IMG/VR virus record: IMGVR_UViG_3300017971_000583
Span: 1 to 33,258 of that record
Direction: 5' to 3' (one strand)
DNA length: 33,258 nt
Source of the DNA: a virus
This document shows, piece by piece, positions 4,692 to 28,700 of the stretch (within the stretch, counting starts at the first letter, position 1; every line of letters begins with the position of its first letter). A program made the translations under genes and the position numbers. The notes under the pieces were generated by a model. It searched no databases. It saw only the letters and a list, made by a program, of their open reading frames with translations, and was not told the origin of the DNA.

Positions 4692-5345
4692 ATGCTGCAC
4701 ACGGTAGAGCTTCCGGGGATGCGTCTTGTTAGTGAGGCCAACGTTCGCCAGCATTGGAGTCGTAAGGCCAAACGCGCCAAAAGCTACCGCTCGGTGGTGT
4801 GCATGGCGTTAGGGCCTCCCTGGAAGGGGGGGCTTCCGGTGTCTATTCTGATCGTAAGGTACGGGCCTCGGAAGCTTGATGACGATAACCTCGTGCGTGC
4901 GTGCAAAGCCGTGCGCGATGGGGTGGCGGATTGGCTTGGTATAGATGACGGTGATGCACAGCTTAGATGGACTTATGCACAGTTTACGGATAAAGTCTAC
5001 GGTGTACGGATTACGGTGAAGGAGGAACGAATGTGGAACAACAAATATTTGATCGACTTCCCGTCGGTCTACACTTCAGGTACCTATGTTTACAGGTATG
5101 CTACCCGAACGGAGGCGACAGATTGGCTTGCAGCAAATGCGGGCAAAATCAAGGCTAGGTTGACCAAGGAATCAGCTGTAGAAGTTGTTTGGGCGCTTAG
5201 CAACTTTCGTTATCCGTTGTTTGAGGAGGGCGGCGCCGATTTGCTGCCGGGAGATGAAGCACTAGTTGTGATTCCGAGTGTGCAACAGGATGGCCCTGGG
5301 CCTGGACGGGATTTGTCTTTCGGGTTTCTGTCTCGCACGTGTTAG
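4692..5345 (+). CDS. RusA-like Holliday-junction resolvase continuous with a DUF1874/B116-like domain
   Basis: A 217-residue protein. Residues 1-110 match the RusA endonuclease pattern: a beta-rich start, LDDDNLVRACKAVRDGVADW at 62-81, and IDDGD at 84-88. RusA uses such aspartates for metal-dependent cleavage of four-way junctions. Residues 114-217 form a second module (TRTEATDWL, a helix, then LLPGDEALVV and LSFGFLSR) that resembles DUF1874, the family of archaeal virus B116 and the cyclic-tetra-adenylate nuclease AcrIII-1. The catalytic His of that family is not at the expected place (Thr instead) and the Asn-Arg pair is missing, so activity is doubtful. A perfect SD precedes the internal Met114, so the second module may also be made alone. 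RusA call about 0.8; DUF1874 call about 0.4. Confidence 0.85.
   Translation: MLHTVELPGMRLVSEANVRQHWSRKAKRAKSYRSVVCMALGPPWKGGLPVSILIVRYGPRKLDDDNLVRACKAVRDGVADWLGIDDGDAQLRWTYAQFTDKVYGVRITVKEERMWNNKYLIDFPSVYTSGTYVYRYATRTEATDWLAANAGKIKARLTKESAVEVVWALSNFRYPLFEEGGADLLPGDEALVVIPSVQQDGPGPGRDLSFGFLSRTC
5019..5033 (+). promoter_or_regulatory. Internal Shine-Dalgarno and in-frame ATG
   Basis: AAGGAGG lies five bases before an ATG at 5031 that is in frame inside the RusA-like gene and falls exactly at the domain boundary. It would allow separate translation of the last 104 residues. The SD bases also encode Lys-Glu-Glu, so chance is possible. Confidence 0.5.
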
Positions 5346-8028: not shown

Positions 8029-8213
8029 ACCCCCAATAGCCAAGCGATTTTTGAGCTGATGCAGGCACAGCGGCTTACATGCGGCATTTGCACAGGTGCA
8101 TGCTTGGCAATTTTAGGCTTGATCAACACGGAACGATCATTCCTTGTTGTAGCCCAAGCGGGTGGTATCGTCAGGATTTTTGTCTATGTGTAAGCCTGCG
8201 GATAAGGTGGGGT

Positions 8214-8918
8214 ATGCCTAACGAAAATCATGCAAAGGTGTGGGTGTATGGGGTTTGCCTAGCCCGTTGGGCTGAGGAAACGCATGCACTTTTGGTTCGG
8301 AGACCCGATTCAGACCAGGATCTGGTTGTGGGGGGTGTGCTCCTTGAAGGATATACGTTTGAGACATATATCACCAGCGCGTACCGTCGGGTCTTTGAGC
8401 AACCTATGGGCGTGTACATGACCTACGGAATCGCCGCTTCGCAAGCGCTAGAGTGTAAGGTAGCATCCCCTACAGTGTACCTTTTGTGCAGTACGCCTAA
8501 GTTGGAAGGGAAACTTAGACCGGATCCTGTAAAGCGCACAGCTCGATGTAATCCCCCCTATGCGTCCGCTCGTTGGGTGCCCATACGGGAAATGGTTGGG
8601 GCAAAATACAACACCAAGCAGTGCAGCATGCTGCAGTACACAATTTTAGCTATGGCCGCGAAATGTGGAGAGGAGCTGGTGCCGGAGACTACTTCGAAAA
8701 AAACCCAACCTGTGCTAACCAAGCTACAGGCGAGGTATTTGGCGCACATACGGTTACATATAAAGGACCACAACCGCCCGCCAACATATAGGGAGCTCGC
8801 ACAGCGGTTTGGGTGCGCGTCGGCCAATGCGGCTAAGGACGTGGTGGATGCTTTGGTGAAAAAGGAATACTTGAGCATCGCACCAGGGGTGAATAGGGGG
8901 ATTGTTTTGGTTGATTGA
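8214..8918 (+). CDS. Degenerate Nudix-like domain fused to a LexA-type winged helix
   Basis: A 234-residue protein. The frame is open from 8079, but ATG 8214 is preceded by AAGGTGGGG and starts where the recognisable domain begins; the 185 bases before it hold no convincing gene. Residues 8-127 resemble a Nudix fold (VWVYGVCLAR, ALLVRRPD, GGVLLEG, then AYRRVFEQPMG), but the REx2EE catalytic glutamates are mostly lost. Residues 168-234 match the LexA DNA-binding domain (LTKLQARYLAHI, RPPTYRELAQRFG, VDALVKKEYL). There is no LexA autoprotease. The plan recalls NrtR-type regulators, in which an inactive Nudix domain senses a nucleotide. A lysogeny or metabolite-sensing repressor is plausible. LexA part about 0.85 sure, Nudix part about 0.45. 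Confidence 0.85.
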   Translation: MPNENHAKVWVYGVCLARWAEETHALLVRRPDSDQDLVVGGVLLEGYTFETYITSAYRRVFEQPMGVYMTYGIAASQALECKVASPTVYLLCSTPKLEGKLRPDPVKRTARCNPPYASARWVPIREMVGAKYNTKQCSMLQYTILAMAAKCGEELVPETTSKKTQPVLTKLQARYLAHIRLHIKDHNRPPTYRELAQRFGCASANAAKDVVDALVKKEYLSIAPGVNRGIVLVD

Positions 8919-10156: not shown

Positions 10157-10482
10157 TGAACGCATCCCTAACATACGTTGTGGAGGTCTTATACCAAGAC
10201 ATAGACAAGGTGGCGACTGTTATGGAGAACATCGATATTTCTCCGGATGTTGAAGGCATACAACCACCAATTTCGATATGCGAGGACATAACAGCAATCA
10301 ACGGCCGTTTTATCGAGCGTACTGTAAAATACCTTTACAGTGCGGAATTCGAAGACGCGTATCCAACGGTAGACCTCAAGGAAGCGGCCCTAAAGGGCGT
10401 TGGTAAAAACATCATCGCGAATAAGCTCCCGGCAAGGGTGGACGTAATCGCGGCGCAATACGAGTTGAATGATTGCCCATGA
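10156..10482 (+). CDS. Hypothetical protein
   Basis: A 108-residue acidic protein starting at an ATG that shares its A with the previous TAA (TAATG); GAGGTAG upstream can serve as SD. It has mixed alpha/beta character (LTYVVEVLYQDIDKVATVME; FIERTVKYLYSAEFEDAYP; GVGKNIIANKLPARVDVIAA) and no membrane segment or zinc motif. It overlaps the next large gene by ATGA. A virion-assembly role is possible from context only. Confidence 0.7.
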   Translation: MNASLTYVVEVLYQDIDKVATVMENIDISPDVEGIQPPISICEDITAINGRFIERTVKYLYSAEFEDAYPTVDLKEAALKGVGKNIIANKLPARVDVIAAQYELNDCP

Positions 10483-12932
10483 GCAACAAGCCAAGATCCC
10501 CAGCACAACAAGCCGCGATTGCTAAAGCGCAAGCGGCAAGAATGGCAAACCGTGCGGCGCGCCAACGACAGATGGATCTCGATCGCGCCCAGCGTGGAGG
10601 TGAGGAAGAAGAAGCAGACGAGGACGAAGATCGCTCCCCTGATTTATCGATGCCGCACTCTCCAGCACTCGATCGCGCGCGTGTGCAGGACGAGCGCCAG
10701 TTTACCGGGGAGGCACACCATTTCAGCGACCCGGCAGACCCGACGGAAATTTCTCCGGAGGAAGCCATCCAGAAAGGAGCCTTGGATTCTGAATCGGCAC
10801 TGAGTAACGAGATGCTCGATCAAACGTTCAGGAAAAAAGCTATGGGTGAAAAAGTAGCGTGGAACGCTCGGGGCCCCGTCTTGTACAACAGTTGCACGGA
10901 GCTCTGGCTTCCGCGCGCCGGCGACAGAGCAAAGGTTTATTTGTATCAGACCAAACCTCGAGCGGCCGAGCTGGATGTTGTCAACTTGCAGGATATTCCT
11001 GAGTACTCGGATATGATTCGGTATCTCAAACAACGCTTCTGGCACGGTGACGACGCGGAATTCAAGTGGATGATCGTAACAGACGGGCGCCGCATTCGCG
11101 GGCGCGATCTCGTTGCGTTCGCGGCGGATCCTATGGTATCGGCTGCTTGGCGACAGCGTGCTTTGGGCGATGGGGTGTTCGGGCAAATTCCCGGCTACCC
11201 TGAAAGTGCGGCGGCTTCGGTGCTGCCACAACCTGGGTTAGCGCCCACGCGCGCCGATTTTGAGTCGGCTCGACGAATACACAATATCCCCTACATCCAA
11301 CACCAGCAACAAATCCCGCCGCACCCCCCCGGACCACCGGGGACGGCAGGGATCCCACCGCATCTACAGCGCAGGTTACCGCCCCCGTCTTGGAACATGC
11401 CCCGGGGTGGAAACGGTGGGCACCCTCCTGGTGCTCCGATGCCCCAACATGACCCGGGGTACCCCTATGGTGCTTCGATGCCCCAACATGACCCGGGGTA
11501 CCCCTATGGTGCTTCGATGCCCCAATATGATCCAGGTTACTCGCTTGGTGTGCCAGCTCCGGCTCCGGCTCCGGCTCCGGTCCAGCCGGCCCCAGCCCCG
11601 GAGTCGGCTCCGGTCCAGCCGGCCCCGGCCCAGTCTCCAGTCCAAACACCAAAATCCGCAACCAGGGAAGACTCTGATGAAGAAGCAGAAGATCCCCAAA
11701 TGGTTTGGATGCGGGCACAGCTTGAGCGCATGAACGACCGGATGGAGCAATTGATGTCAAAGTTGCAACCCTCGGATCCAATGTATTCCTATGGTGCAAG
11801 TTATCCGATGCCCATACAACAACAGGTAGCACCTACGGATAACAAATTGATCCAGGAAGTAAGCCGCGATATGGCGCTCGTGCAAGGGCAAGTGCATGGC
11901 ATGCAACAGTTGATGCGTGAATTTATGCGTCACATGAATGCCAGCAAACAACAGCTGGATTCTCTTGTTTCGGTGCAGCAAACTACAGCCGCACCAGTAA
12001 TGCCCAGCGGGTACTCAATGCCTGCGCAACTTCCGCAACCCCAACCAATTTCTGCCGCGCCACCAGCAAGCGCGCTTTCGTCTCTGCAGCAACAAATGGG
12101 CGAACTAGAGCAAAGCTATCGCAGCTTCGTCAAGCTTGCGAACACCTTTGGTTTACGGCCGCCCCAATCACCAGTGCAAGGTACCCCATCAGCATCACAA
12201 TCTGTGCATCTAGGTCCTGCCGCGAGTAACGGGAGTGGATCTTTGCTGGATGGGACCACTATGGATCTCCCAGAACAAGCAACACAACCGCACCACCCCG
12301 ACAACAATCCGCCTATTCGAATACAAGAAGCGGGTCCTTGGAGATTTGCATTTGGGCCTGAGGGTAAAATGTTGGGGCCGCTTGAACAAGCTATGTTCAA
12401 CGCGGATAACATCCAAGAGCTTGGCAAAGGATTTTTGCAAAGGGTAGAGGCGGCGAAGAACAACGTCGAACGGCAAAAAACAGACGCACTGGAAAACGAA
12501 TTGATCAATATGCGACGTGCGATGAACCAAATGCAAAATCATTCGCAATCTGAGCAACAATCGATGCTTGGGTATATTGCTCATCTTGAGGGTTTGCTCC
12601 AAGCTTCTGGTAAGCCGCCGATGCAACCAGCACCGATGCCGCCAGCGCCGATGCAACCAGCACCGATGCCGCCAGCACCGATGCAACCAGCACCGATGCC
12701 GCCAGCACCGATACAACCAGCACCGATGCCGCCAGCACCGATACAACCAGCACCGATGCCTCCTGTTCAACCAGCACCGATGCCTCCTGTTCAACCAGCA
12801 CCGATGCCTCCTGTTCAACCAGCACCGATGCCTCCTGTTCAACCAGCACCTATGCAACCATCGCATGATCCTGAAGTACTTGTTTCCGCAGATATGCGCG
12901 AAGCTGAAGACGTGGGATCAAGCTTGTTGTAG
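10479..12932 (+). CDS. Large Pro/Gln/Met-rich repeat protein, probable structural or scaffold protein
   Basis: An 817-residue protein. ATG 10479 overlaps the previous stop. In order: a basic Ala/Arg helix (residues 5-35); an acidic EEEEADEDED stretch; a globular domain at about 100-220 (VLYNSCTELWLPRAGDRAKV, FKWMIVTDGRRIRG); a Pro/Gly/Tyr region with three 13-residue repeats (318-356); Pro-Ala-Pro runs; helical coiled-coil segments at about 400-500 and 640-700; and a C-terminal array of PAPMPP and QPAPMPP units (715-791). No membrane span and no catalytic motif. Low-complexity linkers between coiled coils suggest an elongated assembly or virion protein. No family recognised. Confidence 0.8.
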   Translation: MSNKPRSPAQQAAIAKAQAARMANRAARQRQMDLDRAQRGGEEEEADEDEDRSPDLSMPHSPALDRARVQDERQFTGEAHHFSDPADPTEISPEEAIQKGALDSESALSNEMLDQTFRKKAMGEKVAWNARGPVLYNSCTELWLPRAGDRAKVYLYQTKPRAAELDVVNLQDIPEYSDMIRYLKQRFWHGDDAEFKWMIVTDGRRIRGRDLVAFAADPMVSAAWRQRALGDGVFGQIPGYPESAAASVLPQPGLAPTRADFESARRIHNIPYIQHQQQIPPHPPGPPGTAGIPPHLQRRLPPPSWNMPRGGNGGHPPGAPMPQHDPGYPYGASMPQHDPGYPYGASMPQYDPGYSLGVPAPAPAPAPVQPAPAPESAPVQPAPAQSPVQTPKSATREDSDEEAEDPQMVWMRAQLERMNDRMEQLMSKLQPSDPMYSYGASYPMPIQQQVAPTDNKLIQEVSRDMALVQGQVHGMQQLMREFMRHMNASKQQLDSLVSVQQTTAAPVMPSGYSMPAQLPQPQPISAAPPASALSSLQQQMGELEQSYRSFVKLANTFGLRPPQSPVQGTPSASQSVHLGPAASNGSGSLLDGTTMDLPEQATQPHHPDNNPPIRIQEAGPWRFAFGPEGKMLGPLEQAMFNADNIQELGKGFLQRVEAAKNNVERQKTDALENELINMRRAMNQMQNHSQSEQQSMLGYIAHLEGLLQASGKPPMQPAPMPPAPMQPAPMPPAPMQPAPMPPAPIQPAPMPPAPIQPAPMPPVQPAPMPPVQPAPMPPVQPAPMPPVQPAPMQPSHDPEVLVSADMREAEDVGSSLL
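11430..11546 (+). repeat. Three tandem 39-bp coding units
   Basis: Units at 11430-11468, 11469-11507 and 11508-11546. The first two differ by one base, while the third has drifted in its second half. Each encodes a 13-residue block of the GASMPQHDPGYPY type. Confidence 0.95.
12621..12851 (+). repeat. Pro-Ala-Pro-Met tandem array (30-bp then 24-bp units)
   Basis: About four and a half 30-bp units (12621-12755) pass into four 24-bp units (12756-12851) that replace CCGCCAGC by CCTCCTGTT. Neighbouring units differ by one base at most, which suggests recent expansion. All units keep the reading frame. Confidence 0.93.
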
Positions 12933-12987: not shown

Positions 12988-14046
12988 ATGGTAGATTTTG
13001 CGTGCTCACCGGCTCTTTTGGCAACAAGCCGGTTTTATCCATACGACATGATACACCGCGGCGAATACCCAATAGATCGGGTTTATCGCCCCGGGTATTG
13101 TGAGGCACTGGTCGATTTGCCTCATGGTGCGTGTCCTGGGTGGAACTACCGCCCTTGGGCACCACCACCCCCAAGAGGGCAGAGTGGGAACATTCCATAT
13201 CGCCATCATCCAGACTATGCTAAGTATGTGTGCCCTCCAACTCCGCGTGATATGGTGACGCCCAAAGATGTCCCGCCTGGGAGGTCTTATGGCGGGCAAG
13301 CTGTTGGAGTGGTCGTCCCGGGTGGTGATCCGTTTGGGTTGTCACCAGTGCAAACCACCATGCCAGGTAGCGATCCGTTTGGGTTGTCACCAGTGCAAAA
13401 TGCTACCCCGGGGCGGGATCCGTCTGGTGGTGCTCCTCCCGGCAAAGTGTACCCAGGCAGTGACCCCTTCGGCGGTGCCCCCTTCGGTGGTACTCCGCCC
13501 AGCCATGTTTACCCAGGGAGCGATCCTTGGGGCGGTACTCCCTACGGTGGTGCTCCGCCCAGCAACGTTTACCCTGGCAGTGATCCATCTGCACAAGCGA
13601 ACGGAGACACCCCTACTTTGCTTGGCACGCTTGGTTGTGGTGTGCGAAAAAAGTGCAATCCGGCATATTCTCCAAGGTACCGCAGTTTGCGCAACACTCT
13701 TCGAAGACAGTACCACGATTGGGCATATTCGCGAGCGATGGCGCGCCTCACGAGCACTCAAGCTCATTGTGCGCATCCTGTGATATCTGGGATGTTTGCT
13801 GGGCGTGCACCAAATGGGCAGCTTTCACAGACATTCGAAGAGGGGTTGGGCGAGACACAGCACCTAACTAGGCTTCCGACCTTACCCGCGATGACAATAG
13901 ATCGGGATGTTTATTTCCCTAAAGACGTCGATCAAGCAGCCCAAAAAACAAATGAAAAAGACGAAGGGTTGTCTGGTTTGGCAATTGTTGCGTTGGTTGT
14001 TGCTGGTGGGGTTGGCCTGTATGCTGCCTCGAAAGCTTTTAAGTAG
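12988..14046 (+). CDS. Pro/Gly-rich virion protein with C-terminal membrane anchor
   Basis: A 352-residue protein with SD GAGGTG before the ATG. No signal peptide. The N-terminal 100 residues are aromatic and Pro-rich (YRPGYCEALVDLPHGACPGW). Residues about 105-195 hold some seven repeats of the PGSDPFGG type with linkers GGAPPSNVY. A Cys/Arg-rich part follows (GCGVRKKCNP, RYRSLRNTLRRQYHDW), then acidic and polar residues. The last 24 residues are one hydrophobic helix (LAIVALVVAGGVGLYAASK) ending AFK. The pattern, with a long soluble N-terminus and a single C-terminal helix with positive end, recurs in several genes downstream and suggests a protein of an internal virion membrane. Confidence 0.8.
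   Translation: MVDFACSPALLATSRFYPYDMIHRGEYPIDRVYRPGYCEALVDLPHGACPGWNYRPWAPPPPRGQSGNIPYRHHPDYAKYVCPPTPRDMVTPKDVPPGRSYGGQAVGVVVPGGDPFGLSPVQTTMPGSDPFGLSPVQNATPGRDPSGGAPPGKVYPGSDPFGGAPFGGTPPSHVYPGSDPWGGTPYGGAPPSNVYPGSDPSAQANGDTPTLLGTLGCGVRKKCNPAYSPRYRSLRNTLRRQYHDWAYSRAMARLTSTQAHCAHPVISGMFAGRAPNGQLSQTFEEGLGETQHLTRLPTLPAMTIDRDVYFPKDVDQAAQKTNEKDEGLSGLAIVALVVAGGVGLYAASKAFK
13315..13590 (+). repeat. Degenerate PGSDPFGG-coding repeats
   Basis: About seven imperfect in-frame copies of a unit encoding PG(S/G/R)DP(F/W/S)G followed by a Gly/Pro linker. Spacing is 36 to 60 bases and copies are diverged, so this array is older than the arrays at 12621 and 25540. Confidence 0.85.
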
Positions 14047-14052
14047 TACAAT

Positions 14053-15591
14053 ATGCACATGGACATCATCAGACGCCCACACCCAAGGGGGGAACCAGGG
14101 ACACGGATCAGCCTGTCAGAAGTAGCCAAAAGAGCAGCGGAAGGGCGGCTTGATCCGAGAGTGAGGGCTTGGGCTATCGAAAAGCTTGTTCAAGGTGGAA
14201 ACCCAAGAGCACCAAAAGACAAAGCAGCCATCCTCCTAGATGCGCTCAGACGCGAACGCATCTATGTGCCGGACCCTGTCGATGCAGAATTTATACCTTC
14301 TGCGGCGTGCACCTTGGAAGGGTGCGAAGGGTTGAAATTTCTTGGTGAAGACTGCGATGGGTTGCTTGTGAGCTACCTTGCGGCTTGTGGTGCGATTGGC
14401 ATTGAGGGCGCGGTCGTGGGTCACGGGTATTCAGAAGATGGGCAGCTGTCTCATGTGCTCGCCGCGGTGTTTGATGGGGGTGTCTGGACGCTATGTGATC
14501 CAAGCACAGCCCAACCTTTCGGACAGGTAGACCGCCCGGTTCGGGAGCGCTGGATTGCTGTACCTGGCGGCCAAGTTATGTGTGATAACGTAAACGGCAA
14601 GCCTTGTGACTTGCACACCATGGGAAGCGGGCTAACGACTATGAGAGAACACGGCGATTTCGTGGGAGTAGGGCGTCCGTCCGGATTGATTGGGCGTTCT
14701 TCGTCGGGATTGATTGGGCGTCCTTCGTCGGGATTGATTGGTGCCTACGCCGGTTTCGATCAAGTAGATCAAGTGCGCATGGCTGAGGACGCCAGAAATG
14801 CCGCCAACAAGCTGGATGCTATGGTTGTGGAGGCTGTTCGAGTGCACGAAGAGCTTAGATTTCTGCGTGAAGACTTGGAGAACCGATCGATTGTGGATCA
14901 AGCCCGCGATCCTGGTCCTGGTGTCTGGACACAAGCAGACGAAGATTACTTTCGGACGTTGATCTCCGCATCGAGGCTTGCTGTAGAGTACGGCCACGAG
15001 GGGGCGTCAGGTTTGCGGCCTATCGCTTGGGACACTGAGCTGAACACAGTGGTCATTGGTGGTGAGCAGAGTAGAGACGTGCGTCTTGGAATCGACAACC
15101 AAGGCACTGTTTACGTTGTGCAGCCCGGTCAAATCCCATCGGCGATGTCTCCTCCGGCTGGTCTGGTGGGGGCTCCGCTGGCTGGAATCTGGGCAGTCGC
15201 CGTGATGGTTGTCGCGTTGTCCGGACTTGGAGGCATGTACTTTTGGTGCGACAAGGAAAAAGCAGCTCAAAAGGTGATACTTCAGACAGACGAAGTTGTG
15301 CGCGCACGTGAGCTTGAACGCGAACACGGGCCAGATGAGGGAGCACGCCGGGCAGCCGCAGAGCGCGAGCAACGGATAAGGGTAGCACAGGCTAGAGCAC
15401 AAGCAGCAGCAGCCACGCGACCTTCGACCATATCGGAGGTCACTGATCTGATCAAGATCGGCACGATGGCGATTGTGGGCACCGCAGCAATAGGGTTGGG
15501 TGTCTACGGCGGGGTGGAGCTCTATAGGTACCTGAAAGGTACGCCGCGCCGTCGGGGTGGTGCTTTCGCACAGGTACCCAAGCGAGGCTGA
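14053..15591 (+). CDS. Membrane protein with a transglutaminase-like cysteine-protease domain
   Basis: A 512-residue protein starting 6 bases after the previous stop without a clear SD (ATG 14059 is an alternative). Residues 65-165 fit the transglutaminase/bacterial cysteine-peptidase fold: Cys101 in EDCDGLLVSYLAA, His134 in SHVLAAVFDGGVW and Asp149 in CDPS form the usual Cys-His-Asp triad. Three GLIGR/SS repeats (about 211-230) follow, then a helical region and two hydrophobic segments: about 375-400 (GIWAVAVMVVALSGLGGMYF) and 475-495 (IGTMAIVGTAAIGLGVYGG), separated by a charged Arg/Glu/Ala coiled coil. The C-terminus is basic. It could process virion or cell-wall proteins or be a non-enzymatic structural fold. 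Confidence 0.82.
   Translation: MHMDIIRRPHPRGEPGTRISLSEVAKRAAEGRLDPRVRAWAIEKLVQGGNPRAPKDKAAILLDALRRERIYVPDPVDAEFIPSAACTLEGCEGLKFLGEDCDGLLVSYLAACGAIGIEGAVVGHGYSEDGQLSHVLAAVFDGGVWTLCDPSTAQPFGQVDRPVRERWIAVPGGQVMCDNVNGKPCDLHTMGSGLTTMREHGDFVGVGRPSGLIGRSSSGLIGRPSSGLIGAYAGFDQVDQVRMAEDARNAANKLDAMVVEAVRVHEELRFLREDLENRSIVDQARDPGPGVWTQADEDYFRTLISASRLAVEYGHEGASGLRPIAWDTELNTVVIGGEQSRDVRLGIDNQGTVYVVQPGQIPSAMSPPAGLVGAPLAGIWAVAVMVVALSGLGGMYFWCDKEKAAQKVILQTDEVVRARELEREHGPDEGARRAAAEREQRIRVAQARAQAAAATRPSTISEVTDLIKIGTMAIVGTAAIGLGVYGGVELYRYLKGTPRRRGGAFAQVPKRG
14683..14745 (+). repeat. Tandem 24-bp units (GLIGRxSS)
   Basis: Units at 14683-14706 and 14707-14730 differ by one base, followed by a partial third copy from 14731. 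They form a short Gly/Ser linker between the transglutaminase-like domain and the helical part. Confidence 0.93.
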
Positions 15592-15594
15592 GCC

Positions 15595-16443
15595 ATGTCC
15601 TACAAGGACGTTTTTATATTTTGGAACCACGGGCCGATTCCCAATGATGCGCGCCCGATGTTCAGACGGCCAACCGCGTTTCTGAACATGGGGAGTCCCC
15701 CCGGAAGACACCCAGACTTTCGGGGTTCTGTCCTTGCACTTGGTCATAGACCAATCCGTGAGGCCATACGGACCAAGCTTCCTGGTGTCCAACCCCTACG
15801 CATAGGCCTTCTTGGTTTTTCTGCGTCTTGCTCTGGTGTCCGTACGTTTTTATCTTCCGCAGATGGGGGTTATGTGGACACGGTGATTTGCATAGACGGT
15901 ATTCATTGCCAGTCTGTTTCGTATCCTGCGGTCCGAGGGGGATATCTTGGGCCGTATGTGGCTTTTGGTAAACTTGCCGCTTATGGTGTGCCACCATTTT
16001 CGAATGTGGTCGCGGGTAACAGGTTACTTGCAATCACCAATTCCCAGGCAGACGGCCCGCCTGGGCAAGACCCAACAAGCGTGACCACACAAGAGATAAC
16101 AGAGGGCATTCTTGCGGGGTACCCATACATTTCGAACACTCTGCCCGAAGTGCTCTATCACGACCCGTCCAGACACCCTTGGACCAATCCAGCTGGACGG
16201 CAAAGGTGGCCGGACGGCAACGTCACTCAGTGGGGGCGCCACACATACGAAGATCCCCCCATCGAATGGGCCGTGAATGTTGGAGGCTTTTACGCGCTTT
16301 CCTATCGAAAGGTAGATCCTACCTCGATAGGCGATCACCGCTATCAAGCCGCTGTTGTTTTGCCGGCAGTTGTGGGAGCGCTTGCGGCTAACCGTTGGTC
16401 TATTATTCCCCCCGAGGGGGGTGTTTGCATGGTGGGCGCATGA
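15595..16443 (+). CDS. Alpha/beta-hydrolase-like protein
   Basis: A 282-residue protein with GAGG seven bases before the ATG. It opens with a strand and an oxyanion-like turn (VFIFWNHG). Residues 69-78 form the nucleophile elbow RIGLLGFSAS, with Ser76 in GxSxS, followed by a strand and VICIDGIH (Asp101). A candidate catalytic His is in GRHTYEDP near residue 213. No signal peptide; the end is hydrophobic but without a clear anchor. The fold includes esterases, lipases and cutinases, so a lipid, capsule or envelope substrate is possible; substrate unknown. Its stop overlaps the ATG of a putative muramidase, which suggests a joint role in envelope attack. Confidence 0.75.
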   Translation: MSYKDVFIFWNHGPIPNDARPMFRRPTAFLNMGSPPGRHPDFRGSVLALGHRPIREAIRTKLPGVQPLRIGLLGFSASCSGVRTFLSSADGGYVDTVICIDGIHCQSVSYPAVRGGYLGPYVAFGKLAAYGVPPFSNVVAGNRLLAITNSQADGPPGQDPTSVTTQEITEGILAGYPYISNTLPEVLYHDPSRHPWTNPAGRQRWPDGNVTQWGRHTYEDPPIEWAVNVGGFYALSYRKVDPTSIGDHRYQAAVVLPAVVGALAANRWSIIPPEGGVCMVGA

Positions 16444-17297
16444 CAGTTCGACGGTGTCTAGGAGATGGGGGAGCAGTTGTCCCGAGGGGTTGGCTGGGTG
16501 GTGATGGCCCGGACGCTCCGCTTTCTTGGGGGGATGCTTACCCGGGGTCTGGGCCGGATCCGGGAGAAGCCGAACGACAATCAAGAAATCTGGCTGATGT
16601 GCCTGGGTGCCCAGATCAGGCGTGTTTGGATATTTGGGCGCGGCTAGTGCTTGAGGCGGCTTGGAAAGCGCTTGGGTACAACCCAAGTGAAACCGTGATC
16701 CAATCTTCGCAAGCAATCTCACGTATGCTTGCGAACTATGGATGGCCCGGGTTTCCTCGTGCAGTGAGGGGTTCTCGCGATATGAGCAAATGGTGGGGGC
16801 ATCACAACTGGGGCGCGGTGATTTGTGAAACGTGTGTTGAGACCAACACGTGTTTTGCGCCTGCGTTTGTTGATATGATCGAAGTACGTGAAGGAGGATC
16901 CGTTCGCGAGATTTCTGCGTGTTTCGAGCATGCAAACAACAATGATGCGGGAGCAAAAAGATTTATTGAAGTGTTGCTAGGTAGTGCGCCTGCTGCAAAC
17001 TACGCAATGCTTGAAGACGGCGATGCATCTTTGATTGCACGAAGTATTTTCAAGACCACCACCGATCGGCAAGCTGCCATCGATGCTGAGCTCATCACGC
17101 GCCATGCGTACGCGATTGCTCAGAATCAAAACCGCGCGTGTCTTGTGCGCACCAAAGATCCTATTCTGCTTGGCCATGTTCAAACAGAATGGACCAGAGA
17201 TCTGCCAGAGCTCCCCCAACCGTGTTGGATACTTGGTGCGTTTGCTGGTGCTGCGCTACTTGGAGGCATCCTATGGGGCGTAAATCGCACGGTTTGA
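16440..17297 (+). CDS. Putative peptidoglycan hydrolase (glucosaminidase/muramidase-like) with C-terminal anchor
   Basis: A 285-residue protein; ATG 16440 overlaps the previous stop (ATGA). Residues 60-230 resemble lysozyme-like glucosaminidases: a helix with IQSSQAISRML where catalytic domains carry Q.aleTGWG, then HHNWGAVICETC at 121-132 (the common NNWGAI turn), FAPAFVD, a helical stretch and a DASLIARSIF end like the 'aGdp.aiA.am' block. The expected catalytic Glu could not be placed with confidence. Residues about 262-281 are one hydrophobic helix (ILGAFAGAALLGGILWG) ending NRTV. A membrane-anchored enzyme for entry or lysis is plausible. The assignment rests on pattern memory. Confidence 0.7.
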   Translation: MTVRRCLGDGGAVVPRGWLGGDGPDAPLSWGDAYPGSGPDPGEAERQSRNLADVPGCPDQACLDIWARLVLEAAWKALGYNPSETVIQSSQAISRMLANYGWPGFPRAVRGSRDMSKWWGHHNWGAVICETCVETNTCFAPAFVDMIEVREGGSVREISACFEHANNNDAGAKRFIEVLLGSAPAANYAMLEDGDASLIARSIFKTTTDRQAAIDAELITRHAYAIAQNQNRACLVRTKDPILLGHVQTEWTRDLPELPQPCWILGAFAGAALLGGILWGVNRTV

Positions 17298-17764
17298 TCC
17301 TCCAAGATGAATCTGGGCACTTCTTTTTGACACGTGGTGATCACGTCAAATTTGATCTTGAAGATGGTCGCCTTGTAGATATTCCAAACAACTGGATGAT
17401 GTATCAGGACGTTCTTGGTGGCGTGCTACCGGTGTGCACAGTTATGATCGCACCGTATGCACTACGTAATGGGTTTGTCCACATAGAAGATCCCGCATTT
17501 GGGTCTATAGTAAACGCTTATTTTGGTCATGATGTACGTATCAAACTTGGTAAAGTAAAGCTGCCACAAGGCGATTGGTCTGAACTAGGACGTGTTGCAC
17601 GAATTTACTATGCTCGCAGCGGTGAGTATTGCGGCAAATATCATCATGATTTCAAGTTAGAAGCGCCTCCTGTGCGCCTGATGACAACACAAAAAAGCAC
17701 GAGCTACATGGTTGTACTCCCTCGTGGTTGTGTCGTGGATAGCCACGGTTTTGTTTGGCCGTAG
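17273..17764 (+). CDS. Hypothetical beta-rich protein
   Basis: A 163-residue protein. The frame is open from 17138, but ATG 17273 has a good SD (GGAGG at 17262-17266) and begins a typical sequence (MGRKSHGLILQDESGHFF). The remainder is mostly short strands (HVKFDLEDGRLVDIP, VRIKLGKVKLPQGDW, YMVVLPRGCVV), suggesting a beta sandwich or barrel. It overlaps the membrane anchor of the preceding gene by 25 bases. A minor virion protein is the most likely role by position; no family recognised. Confidence 0.75.
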   Translation: MGRKSHGLILQDESGHFFLTRGDHVKFDLEDGRLVDIPNNWMMYQDVLGGVLPVCTVMIAPYALRNGFVHIEDPAFGSIVNAYFGHDVRIKLGKVKLPQGDWSELGRVARIYYARSGEYCGKYHHDFKLEAPPVRLMTTQKSTSYMVVLPRGCVVDSHGFVWP

Positions 17765-17792
17765 CCCCCCAATATACGGATAAAATTTGATG

Positions 17793-17920
17793 CAGCTTGA
17801 GTTAGCCCCAAGCTGATGATAGCCTTGTAGTGTCAATTGGTTTAGGTTTTTGCATGTTTGGGCGCTCTTCAACACACCCCACGAGCCATCTCCCATTGGT
17901 GTTGGGGAGCGCCCCACAAC
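17793..17920. repeat. Two inverted repeats in the gap before the basic protein gene
   Basis: CAGCTTG (17793-17799) and CAAGCTG (17809-17815) form a 7-bp stem. GTTGGGG...CCCCACAAC (17901-17920) forms a second stem with one bulge. No T run follows either, so they are not standard terminators. The 171-bp gap shows no other gene and no tRNA. Confidence 0.6.
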
Positions 17921-17935
17921 TCGGTTGGCCTAGCG

Positions 17936-19612
17936 ATGCCCCAGACATCTAAAGCGAAACAGGTCAGCAAAGCACAAGGGTTGCTCGCGAAGAAACAAGC
18001 TTCTTATGCAAGCGCAGTTTCTCGTAAAGCAAAAACTGCTGGGCGCAAAACCTCCTTAGAGCGCGCCAAAAAAACGCAGCCCAGAAAGCACACCAAACGG
18101 GCAACGCGCGGGCGACTTTCCGCAAGTCGCACAAATCCGAGCAAACGGAAGACATCGCGGGCAACGCAACCGAGGAAAACCTGTCCGGCTCGATGTGTTC
18201 CGATAGAGTTGAAATATAAGGAGGCAAATCCCATGGCAGTAGCAGGAGCGGCCGCACAAGTTGAAGCGGAGAAGAAAAGACTTGCTGGACGAAAACGCCG
18301 CAAGACCAGACGCCGGACGACCAAGAAGACCGGCACCACGACCGCTCGAAAGCGGACTACTCGGCGGCGGCGCCGGCGCACCACCCCGCTTTACAAAATG
18401 CAACAGAGTGTTGTGCGTGCGCGTCGACGCAAGCCAACTCGCAAGCAGAAGCGTACTGTTCCCACTGGGAACTACGCCGGACGCAAGGCGGTCATTTCGG
18501 TTCGACGCAGGTATTCTCTGAGTAACCCCACCGTCATGTACAAGCACATGGCTGCGGGAGCCATCGGGCTGGCCGTAGGTTACGGGTTGGCTGAGGTGGT
18601 GGATCGTGCGGTAGCTACGCGTGCGCCCAAGAATGCCAACAAGGCACTGTACGGCCCCCAAGCCAGTGCAGCCATCGCCAAGAAAGCTGACGGGACCAGA
18701 ATGGCGGTTTCCGGTTTGGGCACCGCGGTCTTGGCTCTCGGCTCTTACATGGCGAAGAAAAAGAGCCCGGTGGCGGCTTGGTCTCTGGGTGGTGCCGCGG
18801 CTGGGTTCGGGGTCAAATTCCTCGACCAGTTGCTGTTCGATGTGATTGCGCCAGCGGTTTGGAAGGTCAAGAGCCCCACTGAGGACAGCTATGCAAACCG
18901 CTTGTTCCCCGACAAGCAGGATGCACCCGCAGCCTCGGCGCTGCCGCCAGAGGGTACCGTGGCTACTTTTGGCACGGCCGGACCACAGATTCCTCGATAC
19001 GGACTGCCTGGTGCCGTGCATGCTCCGCAAGCACAACAACAAGCACTTTATGTACAGGGACACCACCACCCTTTTCTGGGAACTCCGGCAGCAACCAATA
19101 ATGGCGCGGTTGCCGGAGCTCAGGGCGCCGTAGGTGGTTGTGGCTGCGGCCAGAACTATGGCCAGGCTGCTGGGTATGACCTTGCAAAGACTTTCCCGCT
19201 TTGCACAGCAGGTTGCCAAGGCACGTGCAAATGTGGTGCGGCTGTCCCCGGAGTAACTCCTCCGGTAACATGCTCATCATGTGCAATCGAGATCCCAAAA
19301 TTGGTGTCTCCCCAGCTGCCCACGCCTGGGTACCATCTTGTACCGACACCGCAACAAATGCAGGTGCCTGTAGTCGCAAATCAAGGCTTGCACGTTCCGA
19401 CATCTTGGCCCAGTGATGCACTCCCACAAGGAGGTGCTCCTGCAAATGCAGTGTTAGCTCGCCCTGGTGTCGGTGAGCCCCAAGTCGAGGCCCCCCAAGC
19501 CGCGGCTCCTCAAGCCGAGGCTCCTCAAGCCGAGGCTCCTCAAACAGCACAACCCGCCCCGATCAACGACATGTTGGCGGTGGCCCAACGACGGAGACAC
19601 GCCAGACGGTAA
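17936..19612 (+). CDS. Histone-like basic protein with hydrophobic core and Cys-rich part, probable virion protein
   Basis: A 558-residue protein from ATG 17936, which lacks an SD. An in-frame ATG at 18233 has a very strong one (TAAGGAGG) and would give 459 residues. Residues 1-95 are Lys/Arg/Ser/Thr-rich (SRKAKTAGRKTSLERAKK) like histone H1 tails, and 115-200 are again highly basic (RKRRKTRRRTTKKTG). Three hydrophobic or Gly-rich segments follow (AAGAIGLAVGYGLAEVV; VSGLGTAVLALGSYM; AAWSLGGAAAGFGVKF), then a Cys-rich stretch (GGCGCGQN, CTAGCQGTCKCG, CSSC) and an Ala/Pro/Gln repeat tail (EAPQAEAPQ). It may link the genome to the inner face of a membrane or capsid. Confidence 0.78.
   Translation: MPQTSKAKQVSKAQGLLAKKQASYASAVSRKAKTAGRKTSLERAKKTQPRKHTKRATRGRLSASRTNPSKRKTSRATQPRKTCPARCVPIELKYKEANPMAVAGAAAQVEAEKKRLAGRKRRKTRRRTTKKTGTTTARKRTTRRRRRRTTPLYKMQQSVVRARRRKPTRKQKRTVPTGNYAGRKAVISVRRRYSLSNPTVMYKHMAAGAIGLAVGYGLAEVVDRAVATRAPKNANKALYGPQASAAIAKKADGTRMAVSGLGTAVLALGSYMAKKKSPVAAWSLGGAAAGFGVKFLDQLLFDVIAPAVWKVKSPTEDSYANRLFPDKQDAPAASALPPEGTVATFGTAGPQIPRYGLPGAVHAPQAQQQALYVQGHHHPFLGTPAATNNGAVAGAQGAVGGCGCGQNYGQAAGYDLAKTFPLCTAGCQGTCKCGAAVPGVTPPVTCSSCAIEIPKLVSPQLPTPGYHLVPTPQQMQVPVVANQGLHVPTSWPSDALPQGGAPANAVLARPGVGEPQVEAPQAAAPQAEAPQAEAPQTAQPAPINDMLAVAQRRRHARR
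18217..18235 (+). promoter_or_regulatory. Strong internal Shine-Dalgarno with in-frame ATG
   Basis: TAAGGAGG ends 8 bases before ATG 18233, in frame within the basic-protein gene. It may be the main start, or a second one giving a form without the first histone-like block. Confidence 0.6.
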
Positions 19613-19622
19613 GCTGATCGAT

Positions 19623-19678
19623 TTCGGAGGCTTTCAACGTAGCTAGCAAATTCGGCGGCTTTCAACGTATCTAGCAAA
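19623..19678 (+). repeat. 28-bp tandem duplication upstream of the capsid candidate
   Basis: The unit beginning TTCGG and ending CTAGCAAA occurs at 19623-19650 and 19651-19678 with two mismatches. It is non-coding and ends 15 bases before the ATG at 19694, close to the SD (AGGAGAT). It may be a protein-binding or RNA element controlling the next gene. Confidence 0.9.
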
Positions 19679-19693
19679 ATTACAGGAGATTGA

Positions 19694-20983
19694 ATGATGC
19701 CAGCGCAAAACAAACTGAATATTCCCTGCCGAACGATGAATGATTTGCAAATGTGCCTCGACGCGGATACGCATTGCGTGCCCACTGTCGAGTTCAGCGT
19801 GCGTAACTTCCACGCACCCTTGGTGCAAGACGACATCGACTTTTTGTCGGCGCCTGAGATCAACCTGTTTTCCATTCGTGAGCAGACGGCACAAGCCAGC
19901 GCTCGAAATACGATGGCGTATTCCAAAGCGCTGTCGGATCCCACGATCACATTCGACATTCCTTTTGTGATGCTGGGCATTTGTGTGTACGCGTACGCCG
20001 ATCCACACTCGCTGGTGATCGAAGGTAACCAATTTGGCCCTCAAAACCTGTTTGGCGCTGGTGCGGGACAATTCAATCAATTGCCAGCATCTCCGATGAG
20101 CCTGCGCAACACTCCTGGCCTTCTTGGTGGGTTGTTCAACGCGCAGGAACCCCCCGAAGGCTTGATTGTGTGCCCGTCACAGATTGAGTGGGGCGGTCCT
20201 GTATGGCGAGCGATGTGGGCATTTCTGCATGCTTATCGCCTCAAGATGTACTGCTACAACAACACTTATGAGGTGCTGCTTGACGAATCTTTGGCCGATC
20301 TGGGCAACTGCTGCTCGCAGGTTGATTGGAGCGGCTTTGGCGATAGCAAAGCGTCTCATATTCGCCGAACACGCGATGTAAACGACTATCTGCTTGCAAA
20401 TGCTGCTGGATTCCCCGGTGGTGTTGATCCTGGATTCTTCGTACCGATCAACAGCGCGCAGGGCGCCGATGGCGAAATCACACCTCAGAGATACGTGGCC
20501 GACAACACCGCTTACGGCCGCCCGCAAGCGTACCCCGCGGTTGAGCAATGGTACCGGTTGCCCTGCCCCATCCCCTTCCCCTCGATCCCACAACCCAAAC
20601 TGAAGGTGGTGCTCTATCGCGCAGCCGGCGATGAATACTACTTGCAGCGCATGCTGGAAGAGATGTCAATCGATCAGTGCCTGAATCCTGTTCCTGGTAT
20701 AGCTTCCGCAAACTTCCCGATCAATGAGCCTGACGATATCGTCGCAGTTGCTGACGGTGGTTATGGTGGCATGACCAGAATCCCCGCGGGGCCCTTCCGC
20801 CTTGGAATTGGCTTCAAGGGATTCGAGGCGCGCGAGAGTGTTTGCGAAGAGATGTATCGCGCGATCTCCGGTGATACTGCAAAGCTCATGACACAACAAG
20901 GACGATTGGTGCAATCACCGCACGGCGGCACCATGTGCGTTCCTGTTGGCGTGATGGGCCCCAAAGACCAAGGAAACCGCTGA
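19694..20983 (+). CDS. Candidate major capsid protein
   Basis: A 429-residue protein with SD AGGAG six to eight bases before ATG 19694 (a second ATG follows at once). It has no membrane span, signal peptide or low-complexity repeat, unlike its neighbours, and balanced composition with many predicted strands (ITFDIPFVMLGICVYAYAD, LKVVLYRAAGDEYYLQRML, FRLGIGFKGFEARE). It is the largest fully globular protein in the structural block and is flanked by regulatory repeats on both sides, as expected for a highly expressed coat protein. No HK97 signature is visible; a jelly-roll coat protein is possible but unproven. The function is inferred from context. Confidence 0.78.
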   Translation: MMPAQNKLNIPCRTMNDLQMCLDADTHCVPTVEFSVRNFHAPLVQDDIDFLSAPEINLFSIREQTAQASARNTMAYSKALSDPTITFDIPFVMLGICVYAYADPHSLVIEGNQFGPQNLFGAGAGQFNQLPASPMSLRNTPGLLGGLFNAQEPPEGLIVCPSQIEWGGPVWRAMWAFLHAYRLKMYCYNNTYEVLLDESLADLGNCCSQVDWSGFGDSKASHIRRTRDVNDYLLANAAGFPGGVDPGFFVPINSAQGADGEITPQRYVADNTAYGRPQAYPAVEQWYRLPCPIPFPSIPQPKLKVVLYRAAGDEYYLQRMLEEMSIDQCLNPVPGIASANFPINEPDDIVAVADGGYGGMTRIPAGPFRLGIGFKGFEARESVCEEMYRAISGDTAKLMTQQGRLVQSPHGGTMCVPVGVMGPKDQGNR

Positions 20984-21043
20984 TCTCAGTTCGTCTTGCA
21001 CTGACTCATCCGAGAATGACCGCTAACTAGAACCCAGGTTTCC

Positions 21044-21088
21044 CCGTGCGGTCCCCATCTTTCGCAGGGGAGACCTACCGCACGGAGG
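21044..21088 (+). promoter_or_regulatory. Stem-loop overlapping the SD of the next gene
   Basis: CCGTGCGGT (21044-21052) pairs with ACCGCACGG (21077-21085), with an inner CCCC/GGGG helix. The right arm shares two G with the SD GGAGG (21084-21088) of the gene at 21096. There is no T run. It could tune translation, or act as a processing or stability element between two coat-protein genes. Confidence 0.65.
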
Positions 21089-21095
21089 ATACAAA

Positions 21096-21707
21096 ATGAT
21101 CGGCGGCTGGGCAAATCTCGCAGACAATCTTCGTACCATCGCCCTACTCAATCCGCGCCTTGCCCTCATGATGGCAAAGGGCCAACCAATGGCCCCGCGT
21201 TCGTATCAACTCAATATCAATTGGGATGATGCCGGGACTGTGGGGTCAATCGTCACGACTGCATTCCAAGAGCGGTTTTACCAACCGGTCTGGATTCAAC
21301 AATTTGTCTACAACATCCGCGCACCTCAGGCCAACAACGGATCACTTTTCAAGCCAATCATCGACGCGTACCGAAACGAAACTCCTTGGATCAATGTGAG
21401 CCTTAGAATCGAGGGCCCGGATCGATTCCAGCTGACGGAAGGCTATATCGCGCTCGAAAACATCGCGACAACTCGCGGCAACGATCGTGATCTGCTCAAC
21501 AACGCGTGGGTGATTGATCAAGACCAAAATCTTTTCGTGGATGCGATTCTGGATCGTAACCTGGCAGAAGATGAAATCCCCTATGTTCTACAAATGACGA
21601 TGACGGGATTGGAACTAAGCGGGTGCAATCTTCGACAGGTGGGGTACCAGGAAGCCGTTTGCGCTTTGAAGGAAATGGGCCTGTATCCACAATTCCAAGC
21701 AAAGTGA
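21096..21707 (+). CDS. Putative capsid-associated protein
   Basis: A 203-residue soluble protein with SD GGAGG before the ATG. After a short N-terminal helix (LADNLRTIALLNPRLALMMA) come many strand-like segments (SYQLNINWDD, VWIQQFVYNIRAP, PWINVSLRIEGPDRFQLTEG, PYVLQMTMTGLELSG), compatible with a single jelly roll. No anchors or Cys clusters. It sits between the 429- and 258-residue proteins. These three may form the capsid together, as in virus groups with two coat proteins. No family recognised. Confidence 0.75.
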   Translation: MIGGWANLADNLRTIALLNPRLALMMAKGQPMAPRSYQLNINWDDAGTVGSIVTTAFQERFYQPVWIQQFVYNIRAPQANNGSLFKPIIDAYRNETPWINVSLRIEGPDRFQLTEGYIALENIATTRGNDRDLLNNAWVIDQDQNLFVDAILDRNLAEDEIPYVLQMTMTGLELSGCNLRQVGYQEAVCALKEMGLYPQFQAK

Positions 21708-21714
21708 GGCCCAA

Positions 21715-22491
21715 ATGGCGGAATGTGCAAGGTACCAACGCGTAGTCAAATCCACAGTGCAGTATGACCCGACGCTGCAATTTGTGGGCGGGTCACCTTG
21801 GCCGGGGGATTTGAGCGCTTCTGGTCTTGTGCTGCCCGTAGCACCCACCACATCGAGCGAACTGCGCTACCTGGTGCGCCTTTGCGGCTTGCGCTTGGGG
21901 CCGTATGTCCGCTGTGTTGTTCGGTGGGTGCGTCAACTGCTGACGATCGGAACCGAATTACCGACCGAACAAGGCGGAGCTGTGATTCCCGTCGAACAAG
22001 AGGTGATCAGCCCAACTTGGCGGTTTATAGACGGAAATGTTAGTTGGCACCTTCGAAAGCTTGCTGTAAAGCGTGGTACATACATTCGACAACCGTCGGA
22101 TGTTGTCGCATTTCCGCCTTACACTGCTTTGCAAGAAGGTCAGCTTTCTGGCATTCTCACCCGTCAGGTGACCCCATACATCCCGCTAAATGGCGGAATT
22201 CCCCCTGGTGAGGATATTGGTGGGCTTGGAAATATGCGTGATATGCGGTATCCGTACGCCAACGGTGTTTTGCCCAACGATCTCAATCTTGAGGTGGTTG
22301 GGCCCGCCGATGTGATTTTCTTCGCATCAGTTTGGCAGACGGATCCGGAAACACGCCCCAATCCCCCCGATCCAGGGAACACGTCAGCGCTCAGACCAGA
22401 AGACAGATTTGTGCTGCAATATCCAGAATCGCGCTACTGGCGGATCGGTGCAGAAATGCTTTTGGATGTTTGCAATCCGGAGCCTAGATGA
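21715..22491 (+). CDS. Putative capsid-associated protein
   Basis: A 258-residue soluble protein starting 7 bases after the previous stop. Strand-like segments prevail (SELRYLVRLCGLRLGPYVR, SWHLRKLAVKRGTYIRQP, LEVVGPADVIFFASVWQT), with Pro-rich loops and no membrane span. The length and position suit a second coat protein or a vertex (penton) protein. No family recognised. The sequence TGATG at its stop offers a start in another frame that leads nowhere. Confidence 0.72.
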   Translation: MAECARYQRVVKSTVQYDPTLQFVGGSPWPGDLSASGLVLPVAPTTSSELRYLVRLCGLRLGPYVRCVVRWVRQLLTIGTELPTEQGGAVIPVEQEVISPTWRFIDGNVSWHLRKLAVKRGTYIRQPSDVVAFPPYTALQEGQLSGILTRQVTPYIPLNGGIPPGEDIGGLGNMRDMRYPYANGVLPNDLNLEVVGPADVIFFASVWQTDPETRPNPPDPGNTSALRPEDRFVLQYPESRYWRIGAEMLLDVCNPEPR

Positions 22492-22524
22492 TGCATAGGT
22501 TGCCAGAATGCAGGAGGTGTAAAG

Positions 22525-23301
22525 GTGGCTAGTGAACTACAGGTACTTGATTCCTATGTCATCGTAGAGGACTTGGGGATCGAGGTAACAGAAAATGATC
22601 CAGTATATCGGCAAATGCTGCAAAGCCTCTATGTCGATTTGTCACGCCCAGAAGCGGAGTGCTTGATCTATTTTGCCAAGGTGCCTAAGATTGCTACCGG
22701 GCAAAGCAAACTAGGCATGGGGCGAGTCATTGCCAAAGCCAAGTCTTTGATAGCCTTGGCGCAAGAAGCTATGCATCGAATTTATGCTGGCCGTTTGGCG
22801 GTTGCTACAGATGGTAACTGGAAGTGCATGGATGCTTGGGCATTGGCTATGCTGCAACCAGGTATTAGTGGCACTGACCCCACCAACGATGGTGCAGTTG
22901 TTGCTATGATGCCTTTGGACAGTCCAAGCTTGAAGTATTTGCTCGATAATTCGATGCTCCTGCAGTGGGCTGTTCGAGAAGAAGCATTGCGGCAGAACGA
23001 TAAAGAATTCGATTCTGCTACGTTTGGTGTCCAAGCGTTTGATTCGATATTTGTCAACGCGCCTGTTCCTCAGGAGTGCGCTCAGTATGGGTGGGTGATT
23101 GTATCCCCCACGGGTATGCCGAAAGATTGCCCCCCGGGTGAGGTGTGGCTTCCTGAGGACCAAGCTTGTGGTGCTTCTGGGTTGGCTCTGACCTCCACGG
23201 GATTGGCTGAGAAAACAGATTACTCCACCGCGGCATGGGTCGTCGGAGGGCTTGCGGTGGCTGGTTTGGCGTGGTGGGCATTTGGCAAAAAACGGAGGTA
23301 A
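22525..23301 (+). CDS. Virion membrane protein with C-terminal anchor
   Basis: A 258-residue protein starting with GTG at 22525, supported by AGGAGGT eight bases upstream. The first 190 residues are globular and mainly helical (LIALAQEAMHRIYAGRL, WKCMDAWALAMLQPG, LLDNSMLLQWAVREEAL). Then comes a two-Cys module (DCPPGEVWLPEDQACG, about 207-222) that recurs in the next two proteins. Residues 234-254 form one hydrophobic helix (AAWVVGGLAVAGLAWWAFG), and the protein ends KKRR. It lacks a signal peptide, so insertion is C-terminal with the basic tail probably inside. Role in the virion inferred from context. Confidence 0.8.
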   Translation: MASELQVLDSYVIVEDLGIEVTENDPVYRQMLQSLYVDLSRPEAECLIYFAKVPKIATGQSKLGMGRVIAKAKSLIALAQEAMHRIYAGRLAVATDGNWKCMDAWALAMLQPGISGTDPTNDGAVVAMMPLDSPSLKYLLDNSMLLQWAVREEALRQNDKEFDSATFGVQAFDSIFVNAPVPQECAQYGWVIVSPTGMPKDCPPGEVWLPEDQACGASGLALTSTGLAEKTDYSTAAWVVGGLAVAGLAWWAFGKKRR

Positions 23302-23302
23302 C

Positions 23303-24688
23303 ATGAAAACCTACATCCATCCATGCCCAAGTGGGGGTGTGCAGCGCTACACATACGTGGTGCAGCCTGGAGATACCCCCGAGCTTATCTCTCACAAGCT
23401 CACAGGACGCGACGACCTATGGCCTGGACTTGTAGGTGCTAACCAGCATCATAAGCCCATTGTAGACCATCCTAAAGCCCGCTACGCCACGTTTGAGAAC
23501 CTATCCCCGGGAGAGCATCTCTTCGTACCTGCCAAATGGGGGCAGCTTGGCGAACCTGCTTACGACCAGCTGGCTGGTGTGCTGGGTGCTACCCTGGGAG
23601 CCATGGCGCCTGGGTTGCAAACCCAGATTCAGAGCCAGCTTCCCGGTTGGCAAATGCCTAATGGACCCAATGGGGTGCCTTACTCTCCCCAAAACGTGGG
23701 CAACGTGATCGTGGGGTGGCTGCCGTACCTGTCGAGGATGCCCAATCCTCCCCCCACGCAAACATCATGGCCAACGGATTTGACCCAATGGGATTTTGGG
23801 ACGCTTGCCAACGCTTACCGGTCCGCATCGGATTTGCTTCGCCAAGCACAGGTTCCACAGGCAAACACAACGGTCTTTCGCAGTATCCCGTGGGATGCGG
23901 TGCCCTGGCAGTCGTTTCCATGGCACGTGATCAACGGTGCTGTACCTCCCCAAATGCTTCCGCAGGTGTGGTCTTTCTTCGTCAACTCGATGAACATGCC
24001 GAACGTAATGCGGCCCATGACGTGGTCCGCAAAGAACCACACGCCTAATTTCTTTGAGACCGACTGGACGAGCGGCAACGTGTCAAATGTGCCCTGGGAA
24101 GCAATCGCTTGGGAAACCATAGACCCGGATTTGTTCACGGATACCAGGGTGCACGCGTGCTTCGTGCAAGATGAAGCCGCAGCAAGAGCGCGTCTTGCCC
24201 AAATGATGGATCACAAAGAGTGCTTCGTTGGGCAAGGCCCCGCCAAGTTTGCGGCATATCTCTGCAAACAACCCGATGGGACCTATCGAGACTTGGAGGC
24301 ATGCAGCGCCGGGCCCGTACCTCCTACCGGCGCCTGCCTGCCTCCCATGGAGTACAACCCCACCACCGGCGCCTGTGAGGCACCGGTACCGCAACAGGGT
24401 GTTTGCCGGGAAGGTGAATTTTGGGATACTGCCACCGGTCGGTGCATTCGGTATCAATGCCCTCCCGGACAATACCTGGACCCGGCCACCGGGCAGTGTG
24501 TTTCGTACACGCTGCCCCCCGCTGTCGTGGGGCCTACCCAACTCCCCCCAGGAACCACGCCCACTCCGGGAGTGGTGCCGACGGGCGTCGAGGAAGCAAA
24601 ACCTGACAATACCGGCCTGTATGTGGCACTGGGCGCCGGTGCTTTGGTGCTTGTTGGGCTGTTTGCTGCGGCCAAAATGAAGAAATGA
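23303..24688 (+). CDS. Membrane-anchored LysM protein
   Basis: A 461-residue protein with SD GGAGG before ATG 23303. Residues 15-78 form a LysM domain (YTYVVQPGDTPELISHKLTG ... SPGEHLFVPAKW), which binds N-acetylglucosamine in peptidoglycan. The middle is rich in Trp, Pro and Asn with repeated PWDAVPWQSFPWHVI / VPWEAIAWETID blocks. Then come Cys modules (CLPPMEYNPTTGAC, CREGEFWDTATGRC, CPPGQYLDPATGQC) and a Pro/Thr linker. The last 26 residues form a hydrophobic helix ending AAKMKK. It overlaps the next gene by ATGA. It probably displays a cell-wall-binding head on a membrane-anchored stalk. Confidence 0.85.
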   Translation: MKTYIHPCPSGGVQRYTYVVQPGDTPELISHKLTGRDDLWPGLVGANQHHKPIVDHPKARYATFENLSPGEHLFVPAKWGQLGEPAYDQLAGVLGATLGAMAPGLQTQIQSQLPGWQMPNGPNGVPYSPQNVGNVIVGWLPYLSRMPNPPPTQTSWPTDLTQWDFGTLANAYRSASDLLRQAQVPQANTTVFRSIPWDAVPWQSFPWHVINGAVPPQMLPQVWSFFVNSMNMPNVMRPMTWSAKNHTPNFFETDWTSGNVSNVPWEAIAWETIDPDLFTDTRVHACFVQDEAAARARLAQMMDHKECFVGQGPAKFAAYLCKQPDGTYRDLEACSAGPVPPTGACLPPMEYNPTTGACEAPVPQQGVCREGEFWDTATGRCIRYQCPPGQYLDPATGQCVSYTLPPAVVGPTQLPPGTTPTPGVVPTGVEEAKPDNTGLYVALGAGALVLVGLFAAAKMKK

Positions 24689-26725: not shown

Positions 26726-26726
26726 A

Positions 26727-27179: not shown

Positions 27180-27210
27180 GTTGTGGTAGGCTAACGTCTT
27201 GGAGGTAAAA

Positions 27211-27737: not shown

Positions 27738-27740
27738 GTG

Positions 27741-28697: not shown

Positions 28698-28700
28698 AAC

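Follow-up and report, generated by a model that had tools for sequence, protein, structure and literature searches.

How should an open reading frame be read that begins as a phage resolvase, runs on well past the point at which most of its relatives end, and carries a second start signal at that border? The question is raised by a single virus record, whose 33,258 bases are hereafter called the window. On the forward strand, positions 4692-5345 form one open frame of 217 codons, from the ATG at 4692 to a stop ending at 5345, and encode 217 residues. Frame reading and a match to phrog_34 divide the product into residues 1-113 (4692-5030, forward strand), which form a RusA-like Holliday junction resolvase, and a contiguous C-terminal module of 104 residues (5031-5345, forward strand), referred to below as the tail.

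The first part of the window also encodes ThyX, a DNA methyltransferase, an integrase-like protein and a sigma-region-4 protein. Farther along, 19 different proteins of 8079-33258 were scanned against PHROGs, with matches at E ≤ 0.01 for three only: a repressor-like protein (8079-8918), a tail-spike-like protein (31263-32543) and, weakly, a protein at 29908-31221 (E 0.0036). No PHROGs match to terminase, portal or capsid was found among the 19. In the virion-like half (12988-29898), the most hydrophobic 19-residue stretch has a mean hydropathy of 1.6 or more and ends no more than 8 residues from the C-terminus in seven proteins, most of them with a short basic tail (12988-14046, 16434-17297, 23297-24688, 27402-27737, 27786-28697, 28701-28925 and 28927-29898); the C-terminal hydrophobic stretch of 22525-23301 lies just below the 1.6 threshold. 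Since such stretches occur together with almost no PHROGs matches, this half may encode an undescribed kind of virion, perhaps a membrane-containing one. Two repeat features were also recorded. At positions 1-44, where the record begins, a 15-bp unit (CCGGTCAAGCGGGAA) is repeated perfectly in tandem 2.9 times, which may mark an assembly end or belong to a repeat array. Positions 10473-12932 encode an 819-residue protein rich in Pro, Gln and Met with several in-phase tandem repeats (units of 15, 24, 30 and 39 bp).

The RusA-like character of the N-terminal part was confirmed. When the whole frame was compared with PHROGs, residues 17-111 matched phrog_34, the RusA-like Holliday junction resolvases, at E 1.2e-8, and residues 1-113 alone did so at E 6.2e-9. 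The same family was matched by 7/8 members of the alignment of closer relatives (A5). In virus contigs, 238 of 380 candidate stretches retrieved with alignment A2 matched, as did 115 of 148 retrieved with A5 (80 kept in each case), with identities of up to 57%; in genome contigs, RusA relatives were present in 5/257 candidate stretches. Phage relatives include those of BcepMigl, Mx8 and Mx9. Across A2 and A5, D63, D65, N66, K72, D76, D85 and D86 are invariant, and we take the conserved acidic residues to be active-site positions. Judged by its sequence, this part belongs to a divergent RusA clade, because Pfam gave no credible match for it (nor for the C-terminal part), the Pfam RusA model was matched at E ≤ 1 by 0/8 members of A5, and a profile of eight relatives found no solved RusA among PDB sequences.

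Where the resolvase domain ends was judged from its relatives. Those with a match at E ≤ 1e-6 were extended to their own stops, with same-phage duplicates counted and one locus (L071) left out of the stop counts since a contig end cuts it, which leaves 137. In 110 of these the stop lies at most 10 residues beyond position 113; it lies 11-30 residues beyond it in 8, 31-60 in another 8 and more than 60 in 11. Tails longer than 30 residues thus number 19, and no resemblance between any of them and that of the window was seen (best BLASTP E 4.0; best E 0.31 with a DUF1874 HMM). That relatives mostly stop near 113, and that their tails are unlike the window's, argues that residues 114-217 are an add-on to the RusA domain. 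Phage RusA-like resolvases such as Burkholderia phage BcepMigl gp66 and Myxococcus phage Mx8 p24 thus align along the domain to about residue 113 and share its conserved Asp, Asn and Lys positions, but the window frame adds 104 residues unlike any tail in the 137. As an observation apart, six RusA relatives (L091, L094, L096, L097, L101 and L102) carry a different C-terminal tail of about 90-100 residues that is common among themselves.

At this usual end of RusA, sequence inspection and a motif scan place a perfect Shine-Dalgarno-like AAGGAGG (5019-5025, forward strand), separated by a 5-nt spacer from the in-frame ATG that follows at 5031. The initial annotation had described a RusA-like resolvase at 4692-5345, a signature ending near residue 110, a frame running on into a C-terminal module, and AAGGAGG five bases upstream of an in-frame ATG at residue 114, and in this it was supported. 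The forward strand was scanned for AGGAGG followed, after 5-7 nt, by an ATG or GTG opening an ORF longer than 60 residues. Six places were recovered (491, 2521, 4038, 5031, 6953 and 22525), of which four (491, 2521, 6953 and 22525) are starts in the gene list of this analysis and one (4038, spacer 6, in-frame GTG) falls inside the methyltransferase gene; a seventh match, GTG 5033, opens 41 residues only. The start signal at 5031 thus looks like more than chance. RNA folding around it is neutral (z -0.38). Codon usage in residues 114-217 is coding-like and close to that of the RusA part (0.115 vs 0.118 bit per codon), and the other five frames of the stretch score negatively, which makes it very probable that the tail is genuinely coding.

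Comparison of loci suggests how such an arrangement could arise. In 119 distinct RusA loci, ORFs of at least 50 residues were sought whose start is led by a Shine-Dalgarno sequence and lies no more than 30 nt from the rusA stop; 66 of the loci have one. The next start lies in the +2 frame in 50 of these (mostly as an ATGA/GTGA overlap), in +1 in 14, and in the same frame in 2. At one of the two same-frame loci (L038), the rusA stop adjoins the next ATG, back to back and in frame. The window has this layout, but with the sense codon CGA (5028-5030, forward strand) directly 5' of the internal ATG, where the stop would stand. Together, the ends of the RusA relatives and the starts adjoining them point to 5031 as the usual operon junction, here in frame and without a stop. 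The simplest history would be that an ordinary operon junction lost its stop, either in the virus itself or through an error in the sequence, and one record fits both.

The reading that we prefer, with a probability of roughly one half, is that two ordinary phage genes, a rusA-type gene and a small gene behind it, share one frame with no stop between them, giving both RusA fused to an orphan tail and a 104-residue product with a start of its own. Initiation at 4692 would yield a 217-residue RusA bearing the small protein as a C-terminal tail, and initiation at 5031 the 104-residue protein alone. By analogy with its family, the RusA part would cut Holliday or other branched junctions that form while phage DNA replicates or recombines; the tail would most likely be an accessory module carried along through stop loss. 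A precedent is offered by two-polypeptide phage endolysins, for which an in-frame internal start and the experimental demonstration of both products are reported (PMC9430671). On paper the two arrangements are alike: a single frame contains an internal start equipped with a separate ribosome site, and the full-length product and its C-terminal counterpart end at a common stop. The enzyme, however, is a different one, and at the RusA locus the two products are predicted from sequence. Should the tail self-associate, the free protein could assemble with the fusion in the manner of the endolysins. A RusA with a passenger tail, accompanied by a separately started 104-residue protein, would be the most economical mechanism.

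What, then, is the tail? Relatives were sought widely. None was found in virus contigs by peptide patterns, in genome contigs, in 788 genomes (392 and 396) from the two phyla to which G001 and G002 belong, or in 50 records of viruses that carry RusA. Against phages, tblastn gave no relative (hits to 28 records, none better than E of about 1), and likewise plasmids (one record, E 3) and five genomes from which RusA loci came (one match, E 0.37). A match in one genome at E 0.002 (L220) lies antisense to a 901-codon open frame and was dismissed as chance-level; alignments crossing a stop in RusA-bearing virus records were inspected and judged spurious. By these comparisons the 104-residue tail is a sequence orphan in the collections searched.

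The initial annotation had seen in the tail the order of DUF1874, the STIV B116-like family that includes the AcrIII-1 ring nuclease SIRV1 gp29 and Csx1-Crn2, and this was not confirmed. PF08960 (DUF1874) gave no match to the tail at E ≤ 10 and none in six frames of the window, nor did phrog_5063 match the tail, although each recognized 19/19 control members; BLASTP of the tail against SIRV1 gp29 returned nothing at E ≤ 100. In a first test with a DUF1874 profile HMM, the tail score was reached by 42 of 1000 shuffles. With a set of 50 distinct proteins, drawn from 15 proteins of annotated viruses and plasmids and 42 virus-contig loci, the HMM score was -1.1 bits, a value that 112 of 2000 shuffles attained and 33 of 187 ordinary control ORFs surpassed. 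The hhalign score of 17.3 was reached by 2/150 shuffles and 7/187 control ORFs, and with -glob the tail score was reached by 47/150 shuffles. Membership gains no support from these local statistics. The string LLPGDEALVV, which carries much of the DUF1874 impression, is not diagnostic, because a codon-pattern scan for strings of this type found 19 virus contigs and no recognizable DUF1874 protein at the string in any of them; PGDEALV was accordingly discarded as a family mark.

A weak collinear signal does remain. When the tail was aligned semi-globally to a PSSM built from the 50 proteins, its score was reached by 3/1500 shuffles and 1/301 control proteins, and its Z of about 3.9 by 0/187 controls. 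Seven known members reached Z of 20 to 50 versus about 4 for the tail, even though proteins at least 45% identical to the member in question were removed from the profile used to score it. The test was run after the other statistics and on a family chosen by eye beforehand, so its p-value is optimistic and its weight small. The collinear resemblance to DUF1874 is, at most, faint and marginal.

From the single sequence, AlphaFold gave a tail model of low confidence (pLDDT 39.7) whose helix and strand order is similar to that of B116. With 19 DUF1874 rows supplied, pLDDT rose to 83.4 and pTM to 0.78, and the best structural match was 2j85 (TM 0.75); against 6scf_A, VIA-align gave Z 12.9 and an rmsd of 3.1 over 98 residues, and viral models, including Erwinia phage proteins, were matched as well. 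The supplied alignment dictates the fold, however, and the result is therefore circular: the guided model is compatible with B116 and no proof of it. The Foldseek comparison with B116 suggested at the outset, run with the single-sequence model, returned no B116 among the best 50 of 56 matches and is uninformative at that pLDDT.

A distant B116 fold that has lost ring-nuclease chemistry and serves as a binding or structural module is therefore possible, but doubtful. It would be compatible with any of the three gene models considered here (two products, a stop missing in error, or a single fusion). Tail and family share a similar length and the Gly-Asp motif. The semi-global score, the order of secondary structure and the guided model speak for the distant fold; the silence of the family models that recognize every control, ordinary local scores, the distance from known members and the low-confidence Foldseek outcome speak against it.

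The preferred reading, two genes in one frame, has its strongest competitor in error: the rusA stop may be missing in the assembly only, through a sequencing or consensus mistake, with two ordinary adjacent genes in the real virus. We regard this as somewhat unlikely. The window is a single record, and since no second copy of the virus was found in virus or genome contigs, the missing stop could be a metagenome assembly error; sister viruses sought through other genes of the window were likewise not found. Such an error would also suit the relatives, most of which end at the border and many of which are followed there by the start of the next gene, and a sense codon placed where L038 has its stop. 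The rest of the frame, however, is undamaged, and neither side of the border is abnormal in its coding statistics.

An unlikely alternative to the two-product reading is a single 217-residue fusion protein, in which AAGGAGG and the ATG would be a coincidence of Val-Lys-Glu-Glu codons. That 11 of the 137 relatives have RusA tails of more than 60 residues counts against two products and makes a plain single-product fusion possible, and the signal inside the methyltransferase gene provides a comparable case within the window. The site at 5031 nonetheless coincides with the domain border, and listed gene starts account for four of the six comparable signals.

Two functional proposals for the tail fare worse. 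There is a slim chance that RusA is fused to a B116-like module without ring-nuclease chemistry and with the second start kept. Free modules would then associate with the fusion, either giving RusA a surface that binds nucleic acid or nucleotides or sequestering a cyclic-nucleotide alarm signal at the site of phage DNA processing. No paper combining RusA with DUF1874, AcrIII, B116 or ring nuclease appeared among the literature matches listed. The other proposal is catalytic. None of the DUF1874 signatures SA[IV]GH, NR and RLxEG is retained in alignments of the tail: in the semi-global alignment it has T-K at the G-H columns, a gap at N-R and Q.../D-G at R-L-x-E-G. The catalytic His is indeed absent, as had been noted, but in two alignments its column carries Lys159, and the Thr said to replace it (Thr158) lies one position off, on the preceding Gly column. 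In published accounts, Csx1-Crn2 H495A does not degrade cA4 (PMC7293037) and SIRV1 gp29 H47A is called inactive with cA4 binding retained (PMC7213978). Because these relatives need the His that the tail alignments lack, cleavage of cA4 by the tail is very unlikely, a role as an anti-CRISPR ring nuclease is unlikely, and the anti-defence module envisaged in the initial annotation gains no support. An active AcrIII-1-type enzyme degrading cA4, for which that first resemblance is the one argument, is scarcely credible.

As it stands, the finding is modest and concerns one metagenomic record. If real, the locus would represent a resolvase gene that possibly makes two products by an in-frame internal start of the endolysin type, and it would illustrate how a small neighbouring gene can turn into a domain when a single stop disappears. 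Should the tail prove to be a degenerate B116 fold, that fold would extend beyond ring nucleases.
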